Shown here piece by piece: positions 1,107 to 14,240 of a stretch of 64,000 nt of DNA. The DNA lies in the NCBI RefSeq assembly GCF_900142545.1, contig NZ_FRBF01000012.1:1-64000 (forward strand). The letters are read 5' to 3'. Positions within the stretch are counted from its first letter, which is position 1. Each line of letters opens with the position of its first letter. Under the pieces are notes generated by a model. The model did not search any database. It had not been told where the DNA came from and was given only the letters and a program-made list of their open reading frames with translations. The position numbers were made by a program, and so were the translations under genes. This stretch comes from Fibrobacter sp. UWT2. GTDB lineage: Bacteria; Fibrobacterota; Fibrobacteria; Fibrobacterales; Fibrobacteraceae.

Positions 1107-2780
1107 TTATCTCTTTTTCTTCTTGGCGGCGCGGGCCTTCTTGGCTTCGAGCTGCTTCTGTCTAGCCTTCTTGGCGGCTTCGCGCTTTGCTGCGGCCTTC
1201 TTGCTTGCGGCGCTGTTCTGCTGAACGGCAGGCTGCTGTTCTTCAACAGCGTCTTCCTCTTCGACAGCCGGTTCTTCTTCTACAGCGGCCGGCTGTTCCG
1301 GTTCGCTGTAGCTTTCACCCGTCTGGTATTCGATGATAGACTGTTCTTCAGCCTGGGCACCGCCGTTCTTGGCCTGCTGCAAGGCTGCCTTGGCTTCTTC
1401 CACGTACTTGCCGTTGGGGAAGCGCTTCAGGTAGATTTCGTAGTCCTTGAGGCGGTTGCCGCTCTTGACCAATTCGAAGATGCCTGCTTCAGCTTCATCG
1501 CGGAATGCACCGTTCGGATTGTCGTTCAAGTAGGTGAGGTAAGCCTTGAAGGTGTTCTGTGCCTGGATGGCGCGGAACTTGTCATATTCGCTGAGAGAGC
1601 GGAGCTTTGCTTCGACTTCGGCTCTACGCGGAGAGTCGGGGTAGTACAGCAAGAACATTTCAAGCATTTCGGGGTCGTTGCTGGCCATGACCTGGTCAAA
1701 ACGAGAATCTTCCTGCTTGGCCTGGTATTCCTTGATCTGCACCTTGCCGCTGTCGAGCGTGGAGTAAAGCTTTTCCTTAGTAGCGAGGTCTGCCGGGTGG
1801 CAGAAGGCGAGGAAGCTTTCAAGAACGTCGGCGAACTGCGTACGGGTGTAGGCTTCGCTCATGTCGGGAAGTTCACCGTTTTCGTCGAGGTAGAAGCGGT
1901 AGTCACGTTCAATGGCCATGCAGTCCCAGTCGGAGAGCGTGTCCTTGACTTCGCTGTACTTGCGGAGCACGTCATCGCGGTCATGCAGGTTGTAGCGCAT
2001 GCGGCGGTCACGGCGGCTTTCGCGGCCGAAGTCAATGGAGAGTTCCAGGCCAACGCGAACGGGCCACTTGTATTCAATCTTGTCGAACTTGAGGTCGGAG
2101 TACGGCGAGGGGCTCGGACTGTTGTCCTTGCTGCGGGCTCTAACCTTTTCGTAGGGGAGGAATTCCTTGCGGACATTGATACCGATCTTGAAGTCAGCAT
2201 CCTGGAAAATTTCGCCGATGCGGTATTCCAATGCGCTGGACACGAAACCGGTGGGAAGCATTTCGGTGTGCTGCTTGGTGTTGCCGCCAAATTCATCGTA
2301 GAAGGTGAAGAACTGGAAGCCGTAGCCACCCAAGACGCGCAAGTCAAAGTCGCCACCCAGGTTGAAGGAGAAACCGGCAAGTGCGGACGGAGCGTAAGAG
2401 AGGAACCAAAGTTCTTCGTCGTCCTTCGGGCTCTTGGTGTTCTTTTCGTCGTTGTCGTCTACGAAGGTATACTTCGGCTTGTCTTCAATCGTTCCAAACT
2501 GAATGGAATTGACTTCGAGACCGAGCCAAAGGGTAAACGGAATATCTGCTTTCCAGAACGGGGTGATGAGGGGCGACCACAAGGCGCCGACCGAGACCGG
2601 TATCGTAAGAAGCTTTGTGTCGATACCATCGTTAAGCAAAGTCTTCTCTTTATCTGCCTTAAATTTCAGATAAGCGGGTTCACCCTGTAAGTACAGCTGG
2701 GTACGCCAGTTGATTCTCTCAAAATCGGCGGCCTGAGAAGCCGCTGCCAATAAAGTCAGTGCAAGTAACAGTTTACGCAT
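1107..2780 (-). CDS. Envelope protein: predicted beta-barrel with helical repeats and charged tail
   Basis: I do not recognise a named family for this 557-residue protein. A clear signal peptide (MRKLLLALTLLAAASQA) is followed by about 250 residues rich in alternating aromatic/hydrophobic and Gly residues, typical of an outer-membrane barrel or porin-like sheet. Next come about 200 helical residues with repeated (Y/F)L-x-(Y/F)-P-x-(S/G) units (LLYYPDSPRRAEVEAKL, YLKRFPNGKYVEEAKAAL) that resemble TPR repeats of BamD/CpoB type. The C-terminus is an acidic Glu/Pro/Ala segment and then a Lys/Arg/Ala-rich tail. The tail might bind peptidoglycan or another anionic polymer; that is inference. It forms a single-gene unit with terminators on both sides. 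Confidence 0.75.
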   Translation of the reverse strand: MRKLLLALTLLAAASQAADFERINWRTQLYLQGEPAYLKFKADKEKTLLNDGIDTKLLTIPVSVGALWSPLITPFWKADIPFTLWLGLEVNSIQFGTIEDKPKYTFVDDNDEKNTKSPKDDEELWFLSYAPSALAGFSFNLGGDFDLRVLGGYGFQFFTFYDEFGGNTKQHTEMLPTGFVSSALEYRIGEIFQDADFKIGINVRKEFLPYEKVRARSKDNSPSPSPYSDLKFDKIEYKWPVRVGLELSIDFGRESRRDRRMRYNLHDRDDVLRKYSEVKDTLSDWDCMAIERDYRFYLDENGELPDMSEAYTRTQFADVLESFLAFCHPADLATKEKLYSTLDSGKVQIKEYQAKQEDSRFDQVMASNDPEMLEMFLLYYPDSPRRAEVEAKLRSLSEYDKFRAIQAQNTFKAYLTYLNDNPNGAFRDEAEAGIFELVKSGNRLKDYEIYLKRFPNGKYVEEAKAALQQAKNGGAQAEEQSIIEYQTGESYSEPEQPAAVEEEPAVEEEDAVEEQQPAVQQNSAASKKAAAKREAAKKARQKQLEAKKARAAKKKKR

Positions 2781-2862: not shown

Positions 2863-4413
2863 TTAGAAGGTCAAAACGAAACCGACGCCCAGTAAAAGGA
2901 TTCCGGTGCCAAACAAGGTGCCGCCAATGATCATTTTCTTGTCGCCTTTGTCTACCAGTTCCTTGTTCTCGGCGGCCTTGGACTGGAAGTAATCTCCACC
3001 TGCCGCGGGGCGGTCCAAGTCCATCTTGATCTTGTCGGCGTCATCGTAGTCCAGGCTAGCCAGGTACATAAAGAGGGTGCCCAAGAAGAGGGGTGCGATC
3101 GAAGATCCCATGAGGGTCTTGCCGATAAAATGCTTCTTGCGCTGCTGCAACCATTCCTGTTGTGCCAACAATTCGCGCTGGTCGGTAATGGGGGTGAGCG
3201 CCACGTTGATGTTGGTGATTTCGGTGGGGGCGGCAAACACGGTGAGCGTGGTGTCCCTGAAGCCTTCCATGCGGAGCTGGACGGTTGAAAATCCCGGGTC
3301 GTAGATGGGGAATTTCTTGGGGGTGGCACCGATGGGTTTAGAAGTCTTGGTCACCTTGGCCGAACCGCCAAAGATGTAGGCGCCTTCGGGCTTGGTGTGA
3401 ATCAAAAGTTCTGGCTTGACTCGCTTGAGTTTCAGGGAAACCTTGGCGGTGTCGCCGGGGAGCGGGTTGATGGTTGTCTTTGCACCCCACAGCTGGCGGT
3501 CTACGCCCCAGTAGGCGTAGACTTCGGTTTTGGCAGTGCTGGGAACTACGAAGGTGCAGGGGCTCTTGCAGATGTCTACGTTGCCCTTGGTGACAATGTT
3601 TGCACCTTCGGGATTGGTCTCCACGCGCACATAGCTCTTGTCGCTAGAGGTTTCGGCGGGAACGTGTTCCCCTTGAATGCGAAGGACGAAACGGTGGAGC
3701 TTGTCTTTAGAAAGTGCGTCTGTCAAAGCGTGGATTGCGGATAAATTAATTTGTGCCGTGTTGGTCTTGGCTTGGGTTGAATCGCCCAAGGTGTAACGCG
3801 ACATTTGAATGGCGACAGAATCGGGAGTTCTTGCCGAGGTGATGCGGCCAATGTAGGCGGTGGCGGCCCCGTGTGCCTTCAGGGAATCCTTGATGCAGGC
3901 GGCATCGCTACAGAAGTCAAAGTCTTGGCGATTCACAAAATGAAGAGGCGTGCCTGATTCCTTGATCAAGCGGACCATCAGGTTTTCAATTTGTTCTGCC
4001 AGGTTGGATTCGGAATTGCGTCGCTCGAAAGAGACAAAGACATGCTTGCCTTCAACTGAATTCAAGACGGTGAGGTCGTGAGGGGCCGTTTCTATTTCGG
4101 CTTGGGAGGAATCTTGAACGAGGGAATCCTGTTCTGCGGTGCTTTGCACGACGAAATCTTGCGGTGGGACGGTTCCATTCAGAAGGTCGTTACCCTTTTC
4201 GTCGATAATGCTCTTGAAACGATTCTTGGGAATGCGGATGACCGTGAACTTGCCCTGGATCGTTCCTCCCAGGCTAACGGTGTCGTTCTGGACGCCCAAA
4301 AATTGGGCGGCCTGCTTGGTGCCGTTCACCAGTTCTACTAGGCTTGGGATACCTTCGTCTGCCCAAATGGCGCTGGCCCACAAGATTGCCAATGTCAGTA
4401 TGAATTTTTTCAT
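2863..4413 (-). CDS. PEGA-domain envelope protein with C-terminal membrane hairpin (operon gene 5)
   Basis: This 516-residue protein starts with a signal peptide (MKKFILTLAILWASAIWA). An N-terminal domain follows that resembles a small nucleotide- or peptide-handling fold (FVSFERRNSESN...). Then come two PEGA-type beta modules, around residues 265-320 (VRVETNPEGANIV) and 335-395 (LLIHTKPEGAYIFGG...YDPGFSTVQL). PEGA domains are surface-layer-associated beta modules. The C-terminus has a charged QQ-rich helix (LLAQQEWLQQRKKHF) followed by two hydrophobic helices separated by a polar loop. This last module is clearly paralogous to the C-terminus of the gene just upstream. It is the last gene of a five-gene operon, 6 bp from its neighbour. 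The function is unknown; a structural or surface-attachment role is inference. Confidence 0.8.
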   Translation of the reverse strand: MKKFILTLAILWASAIWADEGIPSLVELVNGTKQAAQFLGVQNDTVSLGGTIQGKFTVIRIPKNRFKSIIDEKGNDLLNGTVPPQDFVVQSTAEQDSLVQDSSQAEIETAPHDLTVLNSVEGKHVFVSFERRNSESNLAEQIENLMVRLIKESGTPLHFVNRQDFDFCSDAACIKDSLKAHGAATAYIGRITSARTPDSVAIQMSRYTLGDSTQAKTNTAQINLSAIHALTDALSKDKLHRFVLRIQGEHVPAETSSDKSYVRVETNPEGANIVTKGNVDICKSPCTFVVPSTAKTEVYAYWGVDRQLWGAKTTINPLPGDTAKVSLKLKRVKPELLIHTKPEGAYIFGGSAKVTKTSKPIGATPKKFPIYDPGFSTVQLRMEGFRDTTLTVFAAPTEITNINVALTPITDQRELLAQQEWLQQRKKHFIGKTLMGSSIAPLFLGTLFMYLASLDYDDADKIKMDLDRPAAGGDYFQSKAAENKELVDKGDKKMIIGGTLFGTGILLLGVGFVLTF

Positions 4414-4419
4414 AAGGCC

Positions 4420-5040
4420 CTAGAATGATAAAATGAATCCGATAGAAAATAGTGCAGCGCCCGTTATGATTCCGGTGTAGGTAAAGCCCTTTGCCATCTT
4501 GGCGCTTTCGCGGTAATCAGAAAAATCGTCAAGTTTCTGCTGGAATCGGTCGGTGTCGATTGAAGAATTCTTGAGAGACTTTTTGCAATCCTTGGCCTTG
4601 TCAATTTCGTAGTAGGTGACGGCGCCTGCCACAAGGCCTGCGGCAAAGGGTATGAGTGAAATCTTCATGAGCCCTTTCCCGAAGTTCGCGCGTTTGCGCT
4701 TTGCAAGTTCGGACTGCTGCTTTTCCAGAAATTCTTCGTCGGGAATGGGCTTTTGAGAAATGATGATGAACGAGGTGTCCTTAGGCGACAGCGTCACGCG
4801 GAGGGTGGTGTCCATAAATCCCGGGTTGAAAAGGGATATCAGGACTTCGCTTGCCAGGGAGTCTTCGGAAAGTTCAATGATAGCGGGCGAAACGAAGTCC
4901 GGATTCTTGGCGTGGTTCGGACGGATTTCGTCGACGTAGATATCCGCGTTGCTCGGAATCGTGGATACATGCAACACCTTCGGGTCCGCAAAAACGCAGG
5001 CAATCATGCAAAGGATCAATGTGGTCAAAAGGCGCAACAT
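4420..5040 (-). CDS. Small PEGA-domain envelope protein (operon gene 4)
   Basis: This 206-residue protein has a signal peptide (MLRLLTTLILCMIACVFA) and one PEGA module (VSTIPSNADIYVDEIRPNHA...LFNPGFMDTTLRV). Its C-terminal module is a charged helix with two hydrophobic segments (FGKGLMKISLIPFAAGL and YTGIITGAALFSIGF). That module aligns by eye with the end of the downstream PEGA protein: the QQ..L..RKR..F.GK.LM pattern and a G....G..L...GF.L.F ending are shared. The pair probably arose by duplication. It sits one base from the upstream lipoprotein gene. The biochemical role is unknown. Confidence 0.8.
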   Translation of the reverse strand: MLRLLTTLILCMIACVFADPKVLHVSTIPSNADIYVDEIRPNHAKNPDFVSPAIIELSEDSLASEVLISLFNPGFMDTTLRVTLSPKDTSFIIISQKPIPDEEFLEKQQSELAKRKRANFGKGLMKISLIPFAAGLVAGAVTYYEIDKAKDCKKSLKNSSIDTDRFQQKLDDFSDYRESAKMAKGFTYTGIITGAALFSIGFILSF

Positions 5041-5041
5041 A

Positions 5042-6412
5042 TTAGAATCCCTCGTATGAATAGGGCCCCGAAATCAGTCGGTAACCGGGAGCGGCTTCGA
5101 TGGTCCAGTAAATGTTGGGCAAAGCATTGTGGGCGTTGTCTTCGCCGACAATGGAAAGCTTGCATTTACTAAAGCAATTCTTGAAGAATTTGACAGTGGG
5201 CACGCTGTAATTGAAACTCAAGGTGTCGAAGTCCATAATGACTTGCAGCCTGGAAGCATTGATGCCGGAACCGTCATCGTAAATGTAGAAGGCGATGGAG
5301 TCGGAATTGAGAACCTGGTCGCTGACGGGTGCCACCTGGGGAGGCGTGCTGTCTCTGAAAACCACTGTGTCGGTGGTCAGCACGGTGTAGGCGGGGATGT
5401 CTACTACAAGACTTTCCCTGGCGTATTCCCTGCGGTATTTTTCTTCCAAAACCACCTTGAGACCGAACTGGGGCTTGATCTTTGTGCTCAACGTACCGAC
5501 GGGCAAATCGTTAGTAAGAGTCTGCAGGGTATCGCCGTCTTTAGAAATCAGGTAGGCGGTGGTCTGCAGAATAGAATTGTCTCTGTAGCGATGGTAAAGG
5601 AAGGGTATTTTCAGGGTTGAAGTTTCTTCGAGAATCCTGGTGGAAAAGTGGAAAATGTCGGTGGAATCGCGGTATTCACGACCGCTCTCGCTTTTCACCA
5701 GTAGTTTTGCGCCCCAGTACAAGGTGAAGGAACTGTCGTAGGGACTGATTTCTTGTTGGGCGATAGAATCGTAGGTTTGAATGAGGGAACCCTTGAGGGT
5801 GGCGCTCTCATTGCAGTCTGTGATACCGAGGGGCTTGTTCCAAACGGAATCGCGCTTGTAAGACATGTAGATGATACAACGGGTCTTTTCCCACGGATCG
5901 ATTCCGGTGACCTTCCATCGCAGCTTCAATTCTTGGTCGTCTTCAGGACTTGCCTGGTTGTATCCGTTAATCGGGGATTCCAGGGAAATGGCGTTGGGCG
6001 TGTTGACGTAGATTTTGAAGGTGGTGCGCAGGGTGTCGCCGAAGAGGTCGGTGGTTTCCAGGGAACCTTCGAATTCTCCGGGGTTCAAGAAGGTGTGACG
6101 GAAATAATTCAAGTTGTAGGTGCTTCCGTCGATTTTCCAAAGGAGGCCGTTGTAGTACTGCTGCAGGGATTCGTCGGTGTAAATGGATCCGCCCGCGGAG
6201 TAGCCTGCAAAGAATTTGATGGTCTGGCCCTGTTCGGCGTAAAATGTTTCGATAGGATCGTAGTAGTTGGCGATGTCGCCGCTAAAGCCGTCGGGTCCCA
6301 CAAAAACGTATTGCTTGAGGGTGATCGGGTCCTTGTCAACAAGATGTTCGTCGCCGCAGGCAGCCAGCGCAAGGAGCATCGCTACAAGAGGGATGTACAA
6401 GAACTTAATCAC
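5042..6412 (-). CDS. Ig/PKD-like lipoprotein (operon gene 3)
   Basis: This 456-residue predicted lipoprotein begins with a hydrophobic signal and a lipobox (LLALAACGDE). The mature part is rich in beta strands. The first 130 residues read like a PKD/Ig fold (LLWKIDGSTYNLNYF...NPGEFEGSLETTDLFGDTLR). The middle holds a fibronectin/Ig-like unit (NGYNQASPEDDQELKLRWKV), and a DSTPPQVAPVSDQVLNSDSI segment introduces a last beta module that contains two Cys (KNCFSKCKL). Its start overlaps the end of the upstream gene by 8 bp, so translation is probably coupled. No enzymatic motif is visible. It shares its modular plan with the next two upstream genes. Confidence 0.78.
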   Translation of the reverse strand: MIKFLYIPLVAMLLALAACGDEHLVDKDPITLKQYVFVGPDGFSGDIANYYDPIETFYAEQGQTIKFFAGYSAGGSIYTDESLQQYYNGLLWKIDGSTYNLNYFRHTFLNPGEFEGSLETTDLFGDTLRTTFKIYVNTPNAISLESPINGYNQASPEDDQELKLRWKVTGIDPWEKTRCIIYMSYKRDSVWNKPLGITDCNESATLKGSLIQTYDSIAQQEISPYDSSFTLYWGAKLLVKSESGREYRDSTDIFHFSTRILEETSTLKIPFLYHRYRDNSILQTTAYLISKDGDTLQTLTNDLPVGTLSTKIKPQFGLKVVLEEKYRREYARESLVVDIPAYTVLTTDTVVFRDSTPPQVAPVSDQVLNSDSIAFYIYDDGSGINASRLQVIMDFDTLSFNYSVPTVKFFKNCFSKCKLSIVGEDNAHNALPNIYWTIEAAPGYRLISGPYSYEGF

Positions 6413-7694
6413 TGAACACCTCCGTTAATGTGGCGTTGGGGCGGAGGTAGAAAGTTTTCCAAACCTTATTGTTGCTTTGATCGACGGCACCGACGAAAAT
6501 CATCTTGCTGGCCCAGTTTTGGCTTGCGGATTCTTTGACGAAGGGAACATGCAGCGTGTCGTTTAAAAGAGTGAAATTCGGAACGTATTCGCCTTCGAAA
6601 TAGACATTGATTTTAGTGGTCGGAATAGGGCCGCCGTGATCGTAAACGATAAAGTGCAGGGTGTCGGCGTAGTCCAGAGTATCGCTGCCGTTTAGGGATT
6701 GAATGCGGGGTGGGATTCTGTCTTGAAGGATGATGGAGTCCAGTTCAAGAACTTGGTCGGCTTTCAAGTTGAAATGGAGCGTGTCCGGCAAGAAGTCATC
6801 TGCGCTATCCACCGAGACAATCAGGTTGTACGCGCCTTTGCCCAAGGGGTGGATGTTGAAGTCTGCACTGGGGTCGCCTGAAAGTTGGAAGGAGGCCAGC
6901 TCGGCTTGCGAAGAATCCTGGAGGGTGACCCTGAAGTTGTATTTATTCTGGTCCGAATGAATGCAGACTGTGCCGGCAACGGCGTTTTGCCCGCTTTTTC
7001 CGTCGGTAAAGAACGAGGAGGTGAGTGATTCCTTGGAACGCTGGCCGAATTCATTGTAGGCGCTGACGGACCAGGAGTATTTCATCAATGGAGAAAGTTC
7101 CTTACGGCAGGTGAAGTTGGCCTGGCTCAACAAGGTGTCTACCAGGGTGTCTTTCCCGGCGTCCTGCAAGATGAAACGGAAGGAAATATCCCACAGGGAA
7201 TCGGGATCGTCAAAGTTCCAGGCGAAACGGATGACGCTGTCGGGGTCGATGTTTTGCGTTCCTGCTGCAGGGATGAACGTTTCGGTGTCCATGATAGGCG
7301 GCGAGGCGACTGTGACGGTCAAGGTGTCGCTGAGGGTATCTCCGAAAAAGTCGATGAAGATGAAGGCGATTTTATGGACGCCGGGTTCGTTGATGTTCTT
7401 TTTAAAACTGTACTCGCTGGCAAAGTTGGCGCCGTCCATGGTCCAGAAGTATTGCCTGTTGCGAATGGACTTGGAGGGCGACACGCTCGTGAGGAAGATA
7501 AGGGAGTCCCCCGGCTGAATGGTGTCTGCCTTGGATTTTGCGGCATCGTTGTCGAAGGAGCGCGTGACGACGGCCGAAACCTCGATTTGTTGAGAGTTTT
7601 GGCTGTCGAACAGGTAGTCGTCGGAGCTAGTGCAGGCTAGGAGCGCCGCAAAGATTCCAAGGAAAACTGCCGATTTGAATAGATGCAAAATCAT
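6405..7694 (-). CDS. PKD-like lipoprotein (operon gene 2)
   Basis: This 429-residue lipoprotein has a signal and lipobox (AALLACTSSD). It has an N-terminal PKD-like module (YFWTMDGANFASEYSF then NEPGVHKIAFIFIDFFGDT), a second module that mirrors extracellular fibronectin-like folds (IRFAWNFDDPDSLWDISF), and a C-terminal beta module beginning near the RIPPRIQSLNGSD segment. The order of modules and the phrase structure ('FGDTLRTT' against 'FGDTLSDT') match operon gene 3, which suggests a common ancestor. Its ATG overlaps the stop of gene 1 by 4 bp. Probable location is the periplasmic or outer surface; the function is unknown. Confidence 0.78.
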   Translation of the reverse strand: MILHLFKSAVFLGIFAALLACTSSDDYLFDSQNSQQIEVSAVVTRSFDNDAAKSKADTIQPGDSLIFLTSVSPSKSIRNRQYFWTMDGANFASEYSFKKNINEPGVHKIAFIFIDFFGDTLSDTLTVTVASPPIMDTETFIPAAGTQNIDPDSVIRFAWNFDDPDSLWDISFRFILQDAGKDTLVDTLLSQANFTCRKELSPLMKYSWSVSAYNEFGQRSKESLTSSFFTDGKSGQNAVAGTVCIHSDQNKYNFRVTLQDSSQAELASFQLSGDPSADFNIHPLGKGAYNLIVSVDSADDFLPDTLHFNLKADQVLELDSIILQDRIPPRIQSLNGSDTLDYADTLHFIVYDHGGPIPTTKINVYFEGEYVPNFTLLNDTLHVPFVKESASQNWASKMIFVGAVDQSNNKVWKTFYLRPNATLTEVFSD

Positions 7695-8395
7695 TTGGCC
7701 CCCAAGGTGTCGATGACAAAGAATTCCTTTTCGGGAATGGAATCTTTGTCGCCAAGAGAGTCTTCGACCAGAATGCGGTAGGTGTGTTTGCCTTGTGCAA
7801 AACCGGACTGGGAAATTTGCTGCAGTTCGCCTACGTTATAGCGGGTGCCGTCGATTTCAAGAACGTGGGACAAATGCTTGTCTTCGTCGCGGTCAGAAGA
7901 TTGCCACGAGAAAAGAATGGGGGTATGAGTGTTGCCGTACAGGGTGTCGCCGTTTGCAGGTTTCGTTTTGGTCGAAATCAGGGGCGGGACGTTGATGGTA
8001 ATCTGGAACGTGGTCTTGAGCTGGTTCTTTTCGCTGTCTTCGATGACCAACTTGTCGGGAATGTTTTCCTTGATTTTTTCGCTGGAGGCCATGTCGTCGG
8101 TGTTAATGGGGTAGGTCATACCCTTGCCGAGGATGTCGTTCCCTTTGTACCAGAAATACTTGATGTCGTTTTTGAAGTTGTCCGGATTGACTTCGGCAAT
8201 CAGTTCGGCGTCTTCGTCAGAATTGATTTTGAGGGGTTCGCCCTTGGTCTCGTCGAATTGCTTTACCAGAACTTGGACGGATGTAATCTTGGGAGTGTCG
8301 CCAGGGGCCTCGGGGATGTCGAGACACGCCGAAAAGAGGCCCCCTGCCATAAGCGTAAGGCAAAGCTCCAAAACACTCCGCTTGTTCTTCTTCAT
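7691..8395 (-). CDS. Ig-like lipoprotein (operon gene 1)
   Basis: The reading frame is open further upstream to 8575, but I place the start at 8395. There a GGAG Shine-Dalgarno sequence precedes an ATG that begins a proper lipoprotein signal (MKKNKRSVLELCLTLMAGGLFSAC), while the longer frame would run through xseB on the other strand. The mature protein is about 210 residues and beta-rich, with two modules: ITSVQVLVKQFDETKGEPLK through KYFWYKGNDILGKG, and PPLISTKTKPANGDTLYG through ILFSWQSSDRDEDKHLSH. It is the promoter-proximal gene of the five-gene operon, divergent from xseB with only 37 bp between the two starts. Confidence 0.8.
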   Translation of the reverse strand: MKKNKRSVLELCLTLMAGGLFSACLDIPEAPGDTPKITSVQVLVKQFDETKGEPLKINSDEDAELIAEVNPDNFKNDIKYFWYKGNDILGKGMTYPINTDDMASSEKIKENIPDKLVIEDSEKNQLKTTFQITINVPPLISTKTKPANGDTLYGNTHTPILFSWQSSDRDEDKHLSHVLEIDGTRYNVGELQQISQSGFAQGKHTYRILVEDSLGDKDSIPEKEFFVIDTLGAK

Positions 8396-9515: not shown

Positions 9516-10652
9516 ATGAAAAGATCCATCGTTATCACCGGCGGCGCAGGCTTTATCGGAAGCCACGTGGTTCGCCTCTTTGTGAATAAGTATCCTGAAT
9601 ACAAGATTATCAACCTCGACAAGCTGACTTATGCGGGCAACCTTGCAAACCTCAAGGATATCGAAGACAAGCCGAACTACAAGTTCGTGAAGATGGATAT
9701 CTGCGATTTTGATGCTTTCTATAAGCTCATGCAGGACGAAAAAGTCGACGGCATCATTCACCTGGCCGCCGAAAGCCACGTGGACCGCTCCATCAAGGAC
9801 CCGTTCACTTTCGCCAAGACGAACGTGATGGGTACTCTCGCCCTGCTCCAGGCCGCAAAGCTCTACTGGGAAAGCCTCCCCGAAAAGTACGAAGGCAAGC
9901 GCTTCTATCATATTTCGACTGATGAAGTTTATGGCGCCCTCAAGATGAATCACCCGGAAGGCATTACGCCTCCGTTCACCACGACGGCTTCCAGCTCCGA
10001 ACACCACTTGGCTTACGGCGACGACTTCTTCTACGAAACGACAAAGTACACGCCGCACAGCCCGTATTCCGCCAGTAAGGCTGGTTCCGACCACTTCGTT
10101 CGCGCGTTCCACGACACCTACGGCATGCCGACCATCGTGACGAACTGCAGCAACAACTACGGTCCGTACCAGTTCCCCGAAAAGCTGATTCCGCTCTTCA
10201 TCAATAACATTCGCCACAAGAAACCGCTCCCGGTTTACGGCAAGGGAGAAAACGTCCGCGACTGGCTCTTTGTGGAAGACCATGCCCGCGCTATCGACGT
10301 GATTTTCCATAACGGCAAGATCGCCGAAACCTACAATATCGGTGGCTTCAACGAATGGAAGAACATCGACATTATCAAGGTCGTCATCAAGACCGTCGAC
10401 AAGCTCCTCGGCCGCGCCGAAGGTGAAGACATGAACCTCATCACCTATGTCACAGACCGCCTGGGACACGATGCCCGCTACGCCATTGACTCCACCAAGC
10501 TCCAGAAGGAACTCGGCTGGGAACCGAGCCTGCAGTTCGAAGAAGGCATCGAGAAGACGGTGCGCTGGTACTTGGACAACCAGGAATGGCTCGACAACAT
10601 CACGAGCGGCGATTACGAAAAGTATTACGAAAAAATGTACGGAAATAGATAA
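9516..10652 (+). CDS. rfbB: dTDP-glucose 4,6-dehydratase
   Basis: This 378-residue short-chain dehydrogenase/reductase converts dTDP-glucose to dTDP-4-keto-6-deoxyglucose, the second step to dTDP-L-rhamnose and related deoxysugars. The NAD-binding motif GGAGFIGSH (residues 9-17), the STDEVYG active-site segment and the YSASKAGSDH catalytic Tyr-x3-Lys are all present, as is the NCSNNYGPYQFPEKLIP signature. The start follows a GGAG ribosome site. Its stop overlaps the next start by one base (TAATG), so translation is coupled to rfbC. The length is a little above the usual 340-360 residues because of an insertion near residues 145-170. Confidence 0.95.
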   Translation: MKRSIVITGGAGFIGSHVVRLFVNKYPEYKIINLDKLTYAGNLANLKDIEDKPNYKFVKMDICDFDAFYKLMQDEKVDGIIHLAAESHVDRSIKDPFTFAKTNVMGTLALLQAAKLYWESLPEKYEGKRFYHISTDEVYGALKMNHPEGITPPFTTTASSSEHHLAYGDDFFYETTKYTPHSPYSASKAGSDHFVRAFHDTYGMPTIVTNCSNNYGPYQFPEKLIPLFINNIRHKKPLPVYGKGENVRDWLFVEDHARAIDVIFHNGKIAETYNIGGFNEWKNIDIIKVVIKTVDKLLGRAEGEDMNLITYVTDRLGHDARYAIDSTKLQKELGWEPSLQFEEGIEKTVRWYLDNQEWLDNITSGDYEKYYEKMYGNR

Positions 10653-11215
10653 TGGGAAAATTCAATTTCATTAAAACATCTATTGAAGGTGTGACGATTG
10701 TTGAACCGACGGTCTATGGCGACCATCGCGGCTACTTTATGGAAACCTACAACAAGGCTGAATTCGACGCTGCCGGTTTGAATATGGTTTTCGTACAAGA
10801 TAACGAATCCAAAAGCAAAAAGGGCGTGCTTCGCGGTCTTCATTTTCAGAAGAAGAACCCGCAGGGCAAACTTGTTCGCGTCATCGAAGGTGAAGTTTTT
10901 GACGTGGCCGTAGACCTGCGCAAGGGTAGCCCCACGTTCGGCAAGTGGGAAGGCGTTACGCTTTCTGCCGAAAACAAGAAGCAGTTCTACATTCCCGAAG
11001 GTTTTGCCCACGGTTTCGTGGTGCTCAGCGAAACGGCGACTTTCGTGTACAAGTGCACCCGCCTCTATGATCCGAAGGATGAAGGCGGCCTGATGTGGAA
11101 TGACCCCGAAATCGGCATCGAATGGCCGGTGGGTAATGGCTTTGAACCGCTGCTTTCTGAAAAGGACACAAAGAACCCCGCTCTTAAGGATTTGGGCTTT
11201 GCGTTTGAATTGTAA
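10652..11215 (+). CDS. rfbC: dTDP-4-dehydrorhamnose 3,5-epimerase
   Basis: This 187-residue cupin epimerises dTDP-4-keto-6-deoxyglucose at C3 and C5. The family landmarks are present: EPTVYGDHRGYFMETYN, QDNESKSKKGVLRGLHFQ (containing the catalytic His), GEVFDVAVDLRKGSPTFGKW, the IPEGFAHGFVVLSE segment and YDPKDEGGLMWNDPEIGIEWP. It starts within the stop codon of rfbB. rfbA and rfbD, the other steps to dTDP-rhamnose, are not in this window. Confidence 0.95.
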   Translation: MGKFNFIKTSIEGVTIVEPTVYGDHRGYFMETYNKAEFDAAGLNMVFVQDNESKSKKGVLRGLHFQKKNPQGKLVRVIEGEVFDVAVDLRKGSPTFGKWEGVTLSAENKKQFYIPEGFAHGFVVLSETATFVYKCTRLYDPKDEGGLMWNDPEIGIEWPVGNGFEPLLSEKDTKNPALKDLGFAFEL

Positions 11216-11236
11216 GAATTTTCTAATTTAAAGCCG

Positions 11237-11683
11237 ATGAAACACATTCTTGTTGTATGTACCGGTAATATTTGCCGCAGCCCCACGGGTGAATATTGCC
11301 TTAAGAAGGAATTGGGGCCTGATTTTGAAGTCATGAGTGCTGGTCTTGGCGCCTTGGTGGATCACCCGGCGCACGAACTCAGCCAAAAAATTGCTCTTGA
11401 ACACGGTATCGATATGAGCGCACACCGCGCTCGTCAGATTAATCTGGATATCCTTAAGTGGGCTGACCTCATCCTGGTGATGGAAAATGGCCACAAGATG
11501 GAATTGTTGCACCGTTATCCGTGGCTCGAAGGCAAGGTTTTCCGTTATGGCGAACCGCAGCGGGTGGATGTTCCCGACCCGTATCGCCGTCCTGAAAACG
11601 CTTTCGTGTTGGCGTGGAATTTTATCTCTAAACTGACCCCGTACTGGGTGGAAAAAATCAAACAAAGCGAAGGCCAGGCTTAA
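11237..11683 (+). CDS. Low-molecular-weight protein tyrosine phosphatase (Wzb-like)
   Basis: This 148-residue phosphatase carries the P-loop CTGNICRS (Cys8, Arg14) and the catalytic-acid segment VPDPYRR (Asp near residue 114), the two features that define the family. In capsule and exopolysaccharide loci such enzymes dephosphorylate the BY-type tyrosine kinase that controls chain assembly. The neighbouring Wza-like exporter fits that role, but no Wzc-like kinase gene lies in this cluster. The gene follows rfbC by 21 bp and has no obvious Shine-Dalgarno sequence. Confidence 0.9.
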   Translation: MKHILVVCTGNICRSPTGEYCLKKELGPDFEVMSAGLGALVDHPAHELSQKIALEHGIDMSAHRARQINLDILKWADLILVMENGHKMELLHRYPWLEGKVFRYGEPQRVDVPDPYRRPENAFVLAWNFISKLTPYWVEKIKQSEGQA

Positions 11684-11704
11684 ACTGGCTAAAAGGGTTA
11701 ATTT

Positions 11705-12850
11705 ATGAAGAAAATGAGTTTGGGTCTTGGCCTTATTGCCGCTGCTCTCTTGAGCGGCTGCGCACTCGGACCGCAAATGCAGATGACTCTTCCGGGTGAT
11801 TCTGCTGAATACAATGGCATGAAGGTTCGTATTCATGACATTGGCGAAGGTGATCTGGGCAATGGCGTGGCAATCGCTGATAGCGGCAGTGCCGACAATT
11901 TTGGCGACTTGAAGGAACTCATGGTGGATTCCCTGCCTGAACTGGAATACCGTATTGGACCTCTGGACATGGTCCAGGTCGTGGTGTGGGAACATCCGGA
12001 ACTGACTTCTCCGATGGGTCAGTACCAGCCGGCTGGTCAGAAGGTGACCACCGACGGTAAGCTTTTCTACCCGTATGCCGGTGAACTCCAGGCGGCAGGT
12101 CTTACTGCCCAGGAACTCCGCGCCGAAATTACCAAGCGTCTGTCTGACAAGATCTTGAACGATCCGCAGGTTGATGTCCGCGTGACGGGTTACCATAGCC
12201 GCAAGATGTCCGTGTCTGGTGCCGTTACAAGACCGGGTTACGTTTCTTTCAATGAAAACCCGATGACGCTTCCCGACGTGATTGCCAGTGTGGGTGGCTT
12301 TGCCAAGGAAGCCGATCCGTCCTTGATGCAGCTCCGCCGTGGCGACAAGGTTTACACCATTAACTACCTCGATGCCTTCAAGGCAAACTTGCCGCTTGAA
12401 CGCATTATGGTCAGGCCGGATGACCAGGTCTTTGTTCCGTCGCTCTCTGAAACCCAGAAGGACCAGAAAGCCTACATTATGGGTGAAGTCGGAAGACCGG
12501 GCATTATCAACATCTATAACGGAAAGTTGACGCTTGCCGAAGCCTTGGCTTCTGCCGGTGGTCTGCAGGCCCTGAACGCTACGGCCCGCGGAATTTACGT
12601 TATCCGTAATACGTCTGACAAGCAGATTGACGTGTTCCAGCTGAACGCGAAGAACGCAATGGCCCTTGCCATGGCAGACCGCTTCCAGTTGAACGCTCGC
12701 GATGTCGTTTATGTTGACGCTTCCGAACTCGCTACTTGGAACCGCCTTGTCAGCTTGATCTTCCCGTCTGTTAACATGGTTTACTATGGCGCTTTGGCTG
12801 CTCATGAAGTTCATGTGGTCAAGGATGACTATACACCCGATGATAAATAA
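11705..12850 (+). CDS. Wza-like polysaccharide export lipoprotein
   Basis: This is a 381-residue outer-membrane lipoprotein (lipobox LLSGC, Cys19) of the polysaccharide export family. The export domain begins at YRIGPLDMVQVVVWEHPEL and has the expected DGKLFYPYAGEL segment. Two SLBB-type domains follow (MSVSGAVTRPGYVSFNENP and AYIMGEVGRPGIINIYNGK). Wza-type proteins form the octameric channel through which capsule or exopolysaccharide leaves the cell. The C-terminal region could supply the membrane-spanning helix. It lies between the phosphatase and manC in the same operon. Confidence 0.9.
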   Translation: MKKMSLGLGLIAAALLSGCALGPQMQMTLPGDSAEYNGMKVRIHDIGEGDLGNGVAIADSGSADNFGDLKELMVDSLPELEYRIGPLDMVQVVVWEHPELTSPMGQYQPAGQKVTTDGKLFYPYAGELQAAGLTAQELRAEITKRLSDKILNDPQVDVRVTGYHSRKMSVSGAVTRPGYVSFNENPMTLPDVIASVGGFAKEADPSLMQLRRGDKVYTINYLDAFKANLPLERIMVRPDDQVFVPSLSETQKDQKAYIMGEVGRPGIINIYNGKLTLAEALASAGGLQALNATARGIYVIRNTSDKQIDVFQLNAKNAMALAMADRFQLNARDVVYVDASELATWNRLVSLIFPSVNMVYYGALAAHEVHVVKDDYTPDDK

Positions 12851-12863
12851 GGTGCGCTAAATT

Positions 12864-14240
12864 ATGATTAACCTGATTCTTTGTGGTGGTTCGGGCACGC
12901 GCCTTTGGCCCGTGAGCCGTTCCCTGATGCCCAAGCAGTTCGCCCCGCTCTTTGACGGACAGTCCCTGTTCCGCAAGACCGTGGTCACGAACTCCGCTGT
13001 TTGCGAATCCCAGTTTATCGTTTCCAATGCCGACCAGTTCTTCTTGGCCAAGGATCAGCTGGAAATGGAAGGCATGACTGGCAGCAAGTTCCTTCTGGAA
13101 CCCGTGGGTCGTAACACCGCCCCCGCTATTGCCCTCGCATGCCTGACGATGGCTCCTGAAACCATCGTGCTGGTGTCTCCTTCGGATCACGTGATCCGCA
13201 AGAAGGAAGAATACAAGAAGGTCCTGCTCCGTGCCGAGGAACTGGCGAAGGCCGGCAACTTGGTGACGTTCGGCATTACGCCTACTAGCCCCGAGACGGG
13301 CTACGGCTACATCGAAGCCGATGGCGAAAACGTAAAGCGCTTCGTGGAAAAGCCTGACCGCGCTACCGCCGAAAAGTACCTGCTGGCGGGCAACTTCTAC
13401 TGGAACAGCGGTATCTTCTGCTTTACCGCAAAGACGTTCCTCGCCGAACTGGGCAAGTACTCCCCGGAAATGCTCGCCGCCGCGAAAAAGGCCCTTTCCA
13501 ATGCGGCCGTTGAAGAAGGCGAACCCATCCGTATCGACCGCGACGACATGATGGCTATTCCGTCGAATTCCATCGACTATGCCGTTATGGAAAAGTCGAA
13601 CAAGGTGAAGGTGGTCCCGAGCGATATCGGCTGGAGCGATCTCGGCAGTTTCGACAGTCTTTATGGTGAATACCAGCACGACGCTAACGGCAACAATGTG
13701 AACCCGCGTCACATTGCCGTGGATTCCAAGAATTCCCTTGTGATGGGCGGTCAGCGTACCATCGCGACGATCGACCTCGACAAGATGCTCATCGTCGATA
13801 CCCCGGATGCCCTCCTGGTCGCTCCGCTCAGCAGCAGCCAGAAGGTCAAGAAGGTGGTGGAAGAACTCAAGGAACGCGGCTCCGACCTCATTAACGTGCC
13901 GCAGACCGTGAGCCGCCCGTGGGGAACGTATTCCGTGCTGGAATCTACCGAACGCTACAAGATGAAGCGTATCGTGGTGAAGCCGGGCAAGCGCCTCAGC
14001 CTGCAGAAGCACCTGCACCGCTCGGAACACTGGGTGGTCGTAAGCGGTACCGCTACGGTGACTGTTGGCAAGAACGTTTTCTACGTTCGTCCGAACGAAT
14101 CGACCTATATCCCGGTGGGTGAAGTTCACCGCCTGCAGAACGAGGGCAAGCTCCCGCTGGTCATCGTTGAAGTCCAGGTGGGCGAATACACCGGCGAAGA
14201 CGACATCATCCGCGTCGAAGACGACTTCCACAGAAACTAG
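12864..14240 (+). CDS. manC: Mannose-1-phosphate guanylyltransferase / type II phosphomannose isomerase
   Basis: This 458-residue enzyme makes GDP-mannose from mannose-1-phosphate and GTP. The N-terminal nucleotidyltransferase shows GGSGTRLWPVSR (residues 8-19) and FVEKPDR. The C-terminal cupin, type II mannose-6-phosphate isomerase, shows RPWGTYSVL and KPGKRLSLQKHLHRSEHW. It is the last gene of the polysaccharide operon and is followed by a strong terminator. Together with rfbB/rfbC it supplies two activated sugars for a surface polymer. Confidence 0.93.
   Translation: MINLILCGGSGTRLWPVSRSLMPKQFAPLFDGQSLFRKTVVTNSAVCESQFIVSNADQFFLAKDQLEMEGMTGSKFLLEPVGRNTAPAIALACLTMAPETIVLVSPSDHVIRKKEEYKKVLLRAEELAKAGNLVTFGITPTSPETGYGYIEADGENVKRFVEKPDRATAEKYLLAGNFYWNSGIFCFTAKTFLAELGKYSPEMLAAAKKALSNAAVEEGEPIRIDRDDMMAIPSNSIDYAVMEKSNKVKVVPSDIGWSDLGSFDSLYGEYQHDANGNNVNPRHIAVDSKNSLVMGGQRTIATIDLDKMLIVDTPDALLVAPLSSSQKVKKVVEELKERGSDLINVPQTVSRPWGTYSVLESTERYKMKRIVVKPGKRLSLQKHLHRSEHWVVVSGTATVTVGKNVFYVRPNESTYIPVGEVHRLQNEGKLPLVIVEVQVGEYTGEDDIIRVEDDFHRN

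Follow-up and report, generated by a model that had tools for sequence, protein, structure and literature searches.

The window analyzed here, a 64,000-nucleotide stretch of Fibrobacter sp. UWT2 DNA (contig NZ_FRBF01000012.1, positions 1 to 64,000), carries on its minus strand five coupled genes, which encode three lipoproteins (A, B, and C) and two PEGA-type proteins (D and E). Gene A (7691-8395) is an ORF for a 234-aa Ig-like lipoprotein, gene B (6405-7694) an ORF for a 429-aa lipoprotein, and gene C (5042-6412), which starts with GTG, encodes a lipoprotein of 456 aa. They are followed by gene D (4420-5040), encoding a 206-aa exported protein with a PEGA-like domain and a two-helix membrane module, and by gene E (2863-4413), encoding a 516-aa exported protein recognized by Pfam PEGA as well as by model and fold matches. 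An earlier, sequence-only reading of this DNA had described the genes as coupled, with two pairs overlapping by 4 and 8 bp and two separated by 1 and 6 bp, and these values are exact in the sequence. Across the genus loci, the median junctions were -4 bp for A/B, -8 bp for B/C, and -1 bp for C/D (37 loci each) and +7 bp for D/E (36 loci), and 146 of 147 A-E junctions lay within 30 bp, with starts set by the signal peptide and L033-L035 (named MAGs) left out as possible duplicate genomes. Because these distances are kept across the genus, the coupling is not due to chance. Scans for sigma-70 promoters (8 found versus 4.1 expected) and for terminators (11 versus 10.1) gave no clear operon ends, while, given a weak terminator-like stem after E (2854-2831), co-transcription is uncertain for gene F (1107-2780, minus strand), which lies 82 bp after E and encodes a protein of 557 aa whose N-terminal region resembles an outer-membrane barrel (OMP_b-brl E-value of 4.7e-4, under the cut-off). 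Gene F is a frequent downstream neighbor but not an obligate one, being absent at 6/36 genus loci.

The lipid-anchor cysteine behind the signal peptide is invariant in the alignments of A (Cys24, 35/35 rows), B (37/37), and C (37/37). These alignments omit A of L049 and L054, whose starts were misplaced, and use a shortened A with a closer start for L041 and L042. By the sequence criterion of a signal peptide with an invariant cysteine, all three count as bacterial lipoproteins, and their lipidation is predicted. Profile comparison matched B with C at 99.8% over 407 columns, and A with B at 98.5% and with C at 95.5%; judging from these alignments, A, B, and C are mutual paralogues, and A corresponds to the N-terminal portion of the other two. 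Searches of Pfam and NCBIfam left A, C, and D unnamed, also across all members of each, and placed the A/B/C paralogue set in no named family, and the C protein of the window matched no Pfam family at 0.1. Weak matches divide B, whose length ranges from ~430 to 650 aa across the genus, into PKD-like, Ig/fn3-like, carboxypeptidase-regulatory-like, and Ig-like regions, and a search of the B profile against PDB sequences returned nothing convincing (best E-value of 0.11). The model of C (AF2, pLDDT 87.9) is a series of Ig-like domains, of which residues 29-138 form a PKD-type beta-sandwich like the ColG PKD domain 4aqo (Z 9.5, 2.6 Å, 84 aligned); Cys 179 and 200 are conserved in the C alignment. 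The description of these proteins as Ig/PKD-like lipoproteins is thus borne out by the invariant cysteine and the fold of the C model, whereas the PKD_4 match in B (20.8 bits) stays under the Pfam cut-off of 27.

Protein E consists of an Sm-like domain (residues 22-71), a TolB-N/PelC/FlgT-like domain (122-250), two PEGA domains (~260-332 and ~336-408), and C-terminal helices (412-515). Its fold matches, with a single-domain Z of 9-10, are only moderately above the stated background of the tool, and the pTM of 0.44 leaves the arrangement of its domains uncertain; both E and C were modelled as monomers. The E profile likewise found no convincing match among PDB sequences (best E-value of 0.066). 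PEGA (PF08308) scores 40.1 bits in E against a Pfam cut-off of 20.8, and 35 of the 36 E members match it at an E-value of 0.1 or below; the alignments left out E of L073, which is cut by the contig end, and the E-like proteins L074, L075, and L077 from outside the family. D alone falls below the cut-off (2/37 members match, best E-value of 0.016), but its alignment with E spans 183 columns (99.5% probability), and the earlier claim of two paralogous PEGA proteins therefore holds by homology. By this alignment, D is a paralogue of the C-terminal part of E, and the five genes go back to only two ancestries, A/B/C and D/E.

Hydropathy and the E model confirm the C-terminal module that had been ascribed to D and E, namely a charged helix followed by two hydrophobic segments around a polar loop of ~44 residues. 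The motif G-x-x-Phi-x-F closes every D (37/37; SIGFILSF in the window), every E (36/36), and every family E2 (21/21). The outer-membrane beta-signal of BAM substrates has the consensus zeta-x-G-x-x-Phi-x-Phi, as described in PMC10945584; its polar first position is S or T in most D rows but rarely in E, where it is G, and the full consensus is not uniform. The C-terminal segment of E is modelled as helices rather than as amphipathic barrel strands, and helical periodicity is present in D and E2, whereas E alone gave no helical entropy peak. In D, E, and E2, an ending with the core pattern of the beta-signal stands on a helical-looking segment. E2 itself is a lone paralogue of E within the family, encoded by a single gene far from the operon, with a N-terminal region that looks Sm-like by eye, a PEGA region, a C-terminal hairpin, and the same terminal motif; its match to E begins no earlier than about residue 260 and does not reach the TolB-N-like part. 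As well, the main text of a proteome study of F. succinogenes S85 names one PEGA protein, Fisuc_1316/FSU_1783, of 20.24 kDa (PMC4619616; PMC6851124 is another proteome paper on this strain), which by size only fits a separate 190-aa tandem-PEGA ORF (G000:C21) or, less well, D. The paralogy of A, B, and C, the Sm-like and TolB-N-like domains of E, and the invariant C-terminal residues go beyond the sequence-only reading.

All 37 Fibrobacter genomes that were studied closely carry the order A-B-C-D-E, with E truncated by the end of a contig in one of them. Of 20 loci in other genera of the family, 15 have this order too, and the remaining five have a reduced three-gene form of two lipoproteins plus E that also occurs at further loci of genus g16. 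The search for joint gain or loss in other genomes, which the sequence-only reading had suggested, thus yielded the A-E order or its reduced form throughout the family and joint absence outside it. A strong E was present in 106/111 family genomes and a C-type match (E-value of 0.01 or below) in 107/111. Frequent single genes, which would speak against a common unit, were not found within the family: in 105 of the 106 family genomes where E is strong, a C-type match reaches this threshold, and in the last one a match at 0.0138 lies beside E; solitary members are, however, represented by E2 within the family and by lone E-like proteins, the only ones seen outside it, in 5/56 genomes. C-profile matches in 3/56 outside-family genomes are none better than 2.1e-6 and all lie within ORFs of 974-3002 aa. 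Moreover, the A-E order is kept at L092-L096, where XseB, the ABC gene, and gene G were not found adjacent, and at L101 and L102, where no tested neighbor was found. Median pairwise identity is 0.33-0.45 for A-E versus 0.72-0.77 for the neighbors F, G, and P (L033-L035, the named MAGs and possible duplicates, and L073 were left out). Rate covariation among A-E is uneven (B-C 0.82, B-E 0.62, D-E 0.14, C-D 0.15) and not strong support. Order, coupling, joint absence outside the family, common fast divergence, and survival past the loss of neighbors make it well supported that A-E are parts of one unit.

On the observed gene order, co-inheritance, paralogy, domain make-up, and export and lipid signals, we tentatively propose, at a probability of about 0.4, that the operon encodes one envelope scaffold specific to the Fibrobacter family, with E as platform, D as partner, and A-C as stalks. 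E would be exported and held by its C-terminal helical hairpin, with its TolB-N/PelC/FlgT-like domain in the periplasm, where this domain probably oligomerizes or docks other envelope proteins. D, which may have arisen by duplication of the C-terminal part of E, would be a short partner limited to the PEGA-like domain and the hairpin. A, B, and C would form a lipid-anchored Ig-like series derived by duplication of one lipoprotein and might bind the platform at one end and, at the other, a partner in the outer membrane or on the surface. We infer from this arrangement mutual contact of A-E, an oligomer, an outer-membrane location, and a scaffold or tether role. The uneven rate covariation counts against the scaffold, and so does E2, whose existence points to an E-type protein that functions independently of the lipoproteins. 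It is doubtful, yet conceivable, that the hairpin of D, E, and E2 sits in the outer membrane, sent there by the G-x-x-Phi-x-F tag read like a BAM beta-signal, and forms with the three Ig lipoproteins an outer-membrane scaffold of the Fibrobacter family; such a hairpin would represent a rare, helical kind of outer-membrane protein and put to the test whether helices can respond to BAM-type signals.

The rapid divergence of A-E could also come from exposure if A-C were Ig lipoproteins exposed on the surface and binding to fibre, phage, or host, with D and E only anchoring or transporting them. B has at least two acidic residues at +2 to +7 after the lipid cysteine in 34/37 rows, and in 18/37 rows a polar residue precedes two acidic ones, a pattern resembling the lipoprotein export signals of Bacteroidetes. 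This signal is described as position-sensitive (PMC5080379), whereas the acidic stretch of B usually comes slightly later, and the polar-plus-two-acidic pattern occurs in 0/35 A and 0/37 C. A, B, and C matched no carbohydrate-binding family, and D and E, for which a surface position is not obvious, diverge at almost the same rate; we regard this role as unlikely.

Slightly less credible is a sensor, in which the lipoproteins and the PEGA and TolB-N domains would survey the outer membrane or the surface, and the hairpin and polar loop of D and E would relay its state to gene regulation. In genus g16, a small ECF sigma factor (Sigma70_r2 E-values of 5e-14 to 2e-13 in three tested) is divergent from the reduced operon at 7/12 loci, and 5/37 D proteins match the sensory helix family 4HB_MCP_1 (best 4.6e-6), although such helical matches easily arise from coiled coils. 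Among the other five g16 loci, three end within ~520 bp, but L146 and L104 lack the sigma factor despite 2.4 kb and 652 bp of upstream sequence, respectively. The paired sigma factor was not found at the genus Fibrobacter loci nor at L088-L102, the weak match in the own genome (25% identity) is located elsewhere, and no anti-sigma family was found.

Export is less probable still, that is, a PelC/CsgG-like ring of E guiding a polymer or protein across the outer membrane, in which A-C would serve as subunits that are accessory or themselves exported. PelC is the best fold match of the E middle domain, and the operon adjoins genes at 9516-14240 that we take, from names given on reading their translations, to be of polysaccharide type. 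However, the E model has no pore-forming strands, and no Pfam enzyme or transporter was found among A-E. An rfbB-type R lies near the operon at only 6/39 other genus loci (tblastn); the link is therefore local, and a tie to the polysaccharide cluster was rejected. Finally, it is very unlikely that A-E are adjacent just through slow rearrangement with no joint job, since, although XseB, ABC, and DedA around the operon are likewise deeply syntenic within the genus, the A-E order outlives such neighbors and the overlapping coupling is kept genus-wide.

Fibrobacter are major fibre degraders of herbivore guts, and their envelope, central to fibre degradation, is poorly understood. With its five genes kept together across the family, the operon is a promising candidate for a cell-envelope complex not described so far, and a fast-evolving, tightly linked, family-wide operon outside curated families is a clean genetic target.

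The whole A-E set was matched by no fold or family search, and a search of one literature collection returned no paper joining Fibrobacter with the PEGA domain or with the PKD domain, which agrees with the earlier statement that no described system of this make-up is known, although it is not proof of absence. Compared with a CsgG-type pore, the E monomer model has no transmembrane strands, and CsgG is not among the matches listed, which by itself does not count against it. PelC, the ring protein of the Pel exopolysaccharide system, is the top fold match of the E middle domain (Z 10.0, 115 aligned, 3.5 Å), and titles of its structure entries name dodecamers and a PelBC outer-membrane transporter; its chains among the matches listed (131-158 residues) equal that domain alone, whereas E has further domains and no lipid anchor motif. 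FlgT of the flagellar H/T-ring shares the same fold (Z 9.2, 118 aligned) but has different companions, and Pfam found no Pel or flagellar gene among A-G. Residues 122-252 of E have the fold of the N-terminal domain of TolB from Tol-Pal (Z 8.8, 109 aligned, 3.4 Å; a fold match only, with no Pfam Tol match), and both proteins are exported by a signal peptide. The C-terminal beta-propeller of TolB is, however, absent from E, whose model after ~250 consists of two small beta domains and helices; in place of the propeller, E carries its Sm-like, PEGA, and membrane-hairpin parts. C resembles PKD/Ig-type lipoproteins by fold and by its Ig-like series, while the sequence matches of the window proteins stay under Pfam cut-offs. 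With the PEGA family, E shares the TTR-like fold of PEGA1 (Z 9.2), to which the A-E operon adds the two-helix module common to D and E, plus the lipoproteins.

The genes for three lipoproteins, A (7691-8395), B (6405-7694) and C (5042-6412), and for two PEGA-type proteins, D (4420-5040) and E (2863-4413), all lie on the minus strand where the sequence-only reading had placed them, and the intergenic spacing it gave is exact (overlaps, 4 and 8 bp; gaps, 1 and 6 bp). The export signals it assigned to all five were also found, as a signal peptide with an invariant lipid-anchor Cys in A, B and C and a signal peptide in D and E. Its description of two PEGA proteins held for E, which is above the Pfam PEGA cut-off (40.1 bits vs 20.8), whereas D is PEGA-like only via its match to E. 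This match (99.5% probability, 183 columns) spans the second PEGA domain and the entire C-terminal module, which had been described as common to both proteins.

The own genome was taken as Fibrobacter, its closest named records being F. succinogenes and Fibrobacter MAGs. The order A-B-C-D-E on one strand is present in the window and in 36 other genomes of the genus, with median junctions of -4, -8, -1 and +7 bp (A/B, B/C, C/D and D/E); in locus L073, E is truncated by the contig end. In some clades among L049-L073, gene B (window 6405-7694) is longer, from ~430 to 520-650 aa via a C-terminal extension, and is still coupled to C. A search of other Fibrobacterota, the check proposed earlier, found the full five-gene order in 15 of 20 other-genus loci (L088-L102) and a reduced form in the other five (L103-L107), consisting of two short B/C-type lipoproteins and then E without its Sm-like domain, and no D. 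Eight more loci of the sister genus g16 carry the reduced form, with both lipoproteins and E in L142, L143, L146, L147 and L148, and one recognised lipoprotein and E in L144, L145 and L149.

Next to the operon, the search did not detect XseB, the ABC gene or gene G in L092-L096, or any of the five tested neighbours in L101-L107. As A-E nevertheless remain adjacent in L092-L096 and in L101 and L102, the conserved unit appears to be the operon rather than the surrounding region. Gene F (1107-2780, minus strand) follows E in most Fibrobacter loci, and its lack in 6/36 makes it an optional neighbour. Beyond the ABC gene, on the plus strand (9516-14240), is a run of what we take, from reading the translations, to be sugar-nucleotide and polysaccharide-export-like genes; this run adjoins the operon in close relatives only.

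Across the phylum set (167 genomes, 111 in the same family and 56 outside), a strong E (E-value < 1e-50) was detected in 106/111 family genomes and a C-type protein (E-value ≤ 0.01) in 107/111. Neither was found in G109, G110 and G155, whose completeness is 65-83%; in G160, A-D are present and a contig end cuts E, and G162 has fragments only. Outside the family, five of 56 genomes have an E-like protein and three match the C profile, within ORFs 974-3002 aa long, and none of the 56 has both. The C gene contains one in-frame TGA in G123:C1:78887-80266 and G122:C44:75285-76673, from assembly error or decay.

According to profile-profile comparison, B matches C (99.8%, 407 columns), while A matches the N-terminal 173 columns of B (98.5%) as well as C (95.5%). 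Together with the D-E match, these make the operon look like a module of lipoproteins and E expanded via tandem duplication; the reduced form would be either older or a secondary loss. In the own genome, the B-type profile matches B and C only, and the D/E module has three copies, namely D, E and a lone paralogue, E2, on another contig (L036:6722-8266, G000:C4; 514 aa, Sm-like domain, PEGA region and hairpin, ending TAGIILAF). E2 is found across the family and is perhaps the older form, because a similar single protein occurs in order-level relatives. A separate tandem-PEGA ORF (G000:C21:36495-36908; 190 aa, two PEGA matches) fits in size the S85 PEGA protein Fisuc_1316/FSU_1783, which PMC4619616 reports from glucose-grown cells.

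D, E and E2 share an odd C-terminus. The terminal pattern G-x-x-Phi-x-F occurs in 37/37 D, 36/36 E and 21/21 family E2, as well as in 2/4 E-like proteins outside the family. The terminal Phe and the Gly at -6 are invariant in D, in E and in the E2 proteins of the family; for D and E these residues lie at the C-terminal ends of 4423-5040 and 2866-4413 in the window. The rate expected from the segments' own composition is 2.5-5.5%, with F, Y, W or L allowed at the end and with family members not independent. The same pattern forms the core of the BAM beta-signal (motif from PMC10945584). Among 13 barrel-type proteins found in the same genome with two Pfam families (each locus counted once, gene F excluded), nine end in F and two have the full spacing. 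Against a strand, however, the end segment of D, E and E2 is uniformly hydrophobic, it is a helix in the E model, and conservation in D and E2 is periodic at ~100 degrees; the beta-signal core pattern sits on an apparent membrane helix. Gly recurs at -6 and -13 in all three. Mean net charge before the first segment (E +2.1, D +3.4) and after it (E -2.9, D -0.4) speaks against a simple hairpin in the inner membrane whose N-domain is exported.

Median pairwise identity across the genus is 0.40, 0.36, 0.33, 0.43 and 0.45 for A to E, and 0.72, 0.77 and 0.77 for the neighbours F, G and P. That the genes diverge fast and yet are strictly retained suggests a role in the envelope or at the surface, under changing pressure. 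The residual-rate correlations vary from pair to pair, from 0.82 (B-C) down to 0.14 (D-E), and so are no proof of contact. The most likely mode of action, with a probability of roughly 0.4, is an envelope scaffold, in which E would be a membrane-anchored periplasmic platform, D its short partner, and A-C lipid-anchored Ig stalks pointing to the outer membrane or surface. A surface-sensing device would fit the small ECF sigma factor gene divergent from the reduced operon in 7/12 g16 loci (L103, 6309-6770; L105, 6390-6857; L106, 6117-6575; L143, L145, L147 and L149), but this gene is absent from L146 and L104 despite room, the other three loci end within ~520 bp, and it does not lie beside the operon in Fibrobacter; a similar sigma gene is encoded elsewhere in G101 (the genome of L146) and in the g14 genome. 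An export ring also ranks below the scaffold. Surface adhesins, another less likely reading, would gain from the acidic residues after the lipid Cys of B, which are reminiscent of the Bacteroidetes export signal (PMC5080379) but differ from it in position.

The A-E set has no name in the family libraries searched, and none of the papers searched combines Fibrobacter with the terms 'PEGA domain' or 'PKD domain'. In the E model (pLDDT 81.5 and pTM 0.44, from 36 sequences), a small beta domain (22-71) and an alpha/beta domain (124-246) are followed by two further beta domains and, at the C-terminus, by long helices. Residues 122-250 are similar in fold to PelC (Z 10.0), FlgT (Z 9.2) and TolB (Z 8.8), although the TolB propeller is absent, and residues 260-332 resemble transthyretin-like domains (Z 9.2; all VIA-align), these being single-domain similarities of moderate Z. 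Hfq, among the Foldseek matches of E (TM 0.64 of target, 52 columns), was assigned to the N-terminal domain. C is predicted as a chain of Ig-like domains, of which we count four (pLDDT 87.9), the first being PKD-like as in ColG (Z 9.5). The folds are already known, and the operon would be an envelope assembly built of them.
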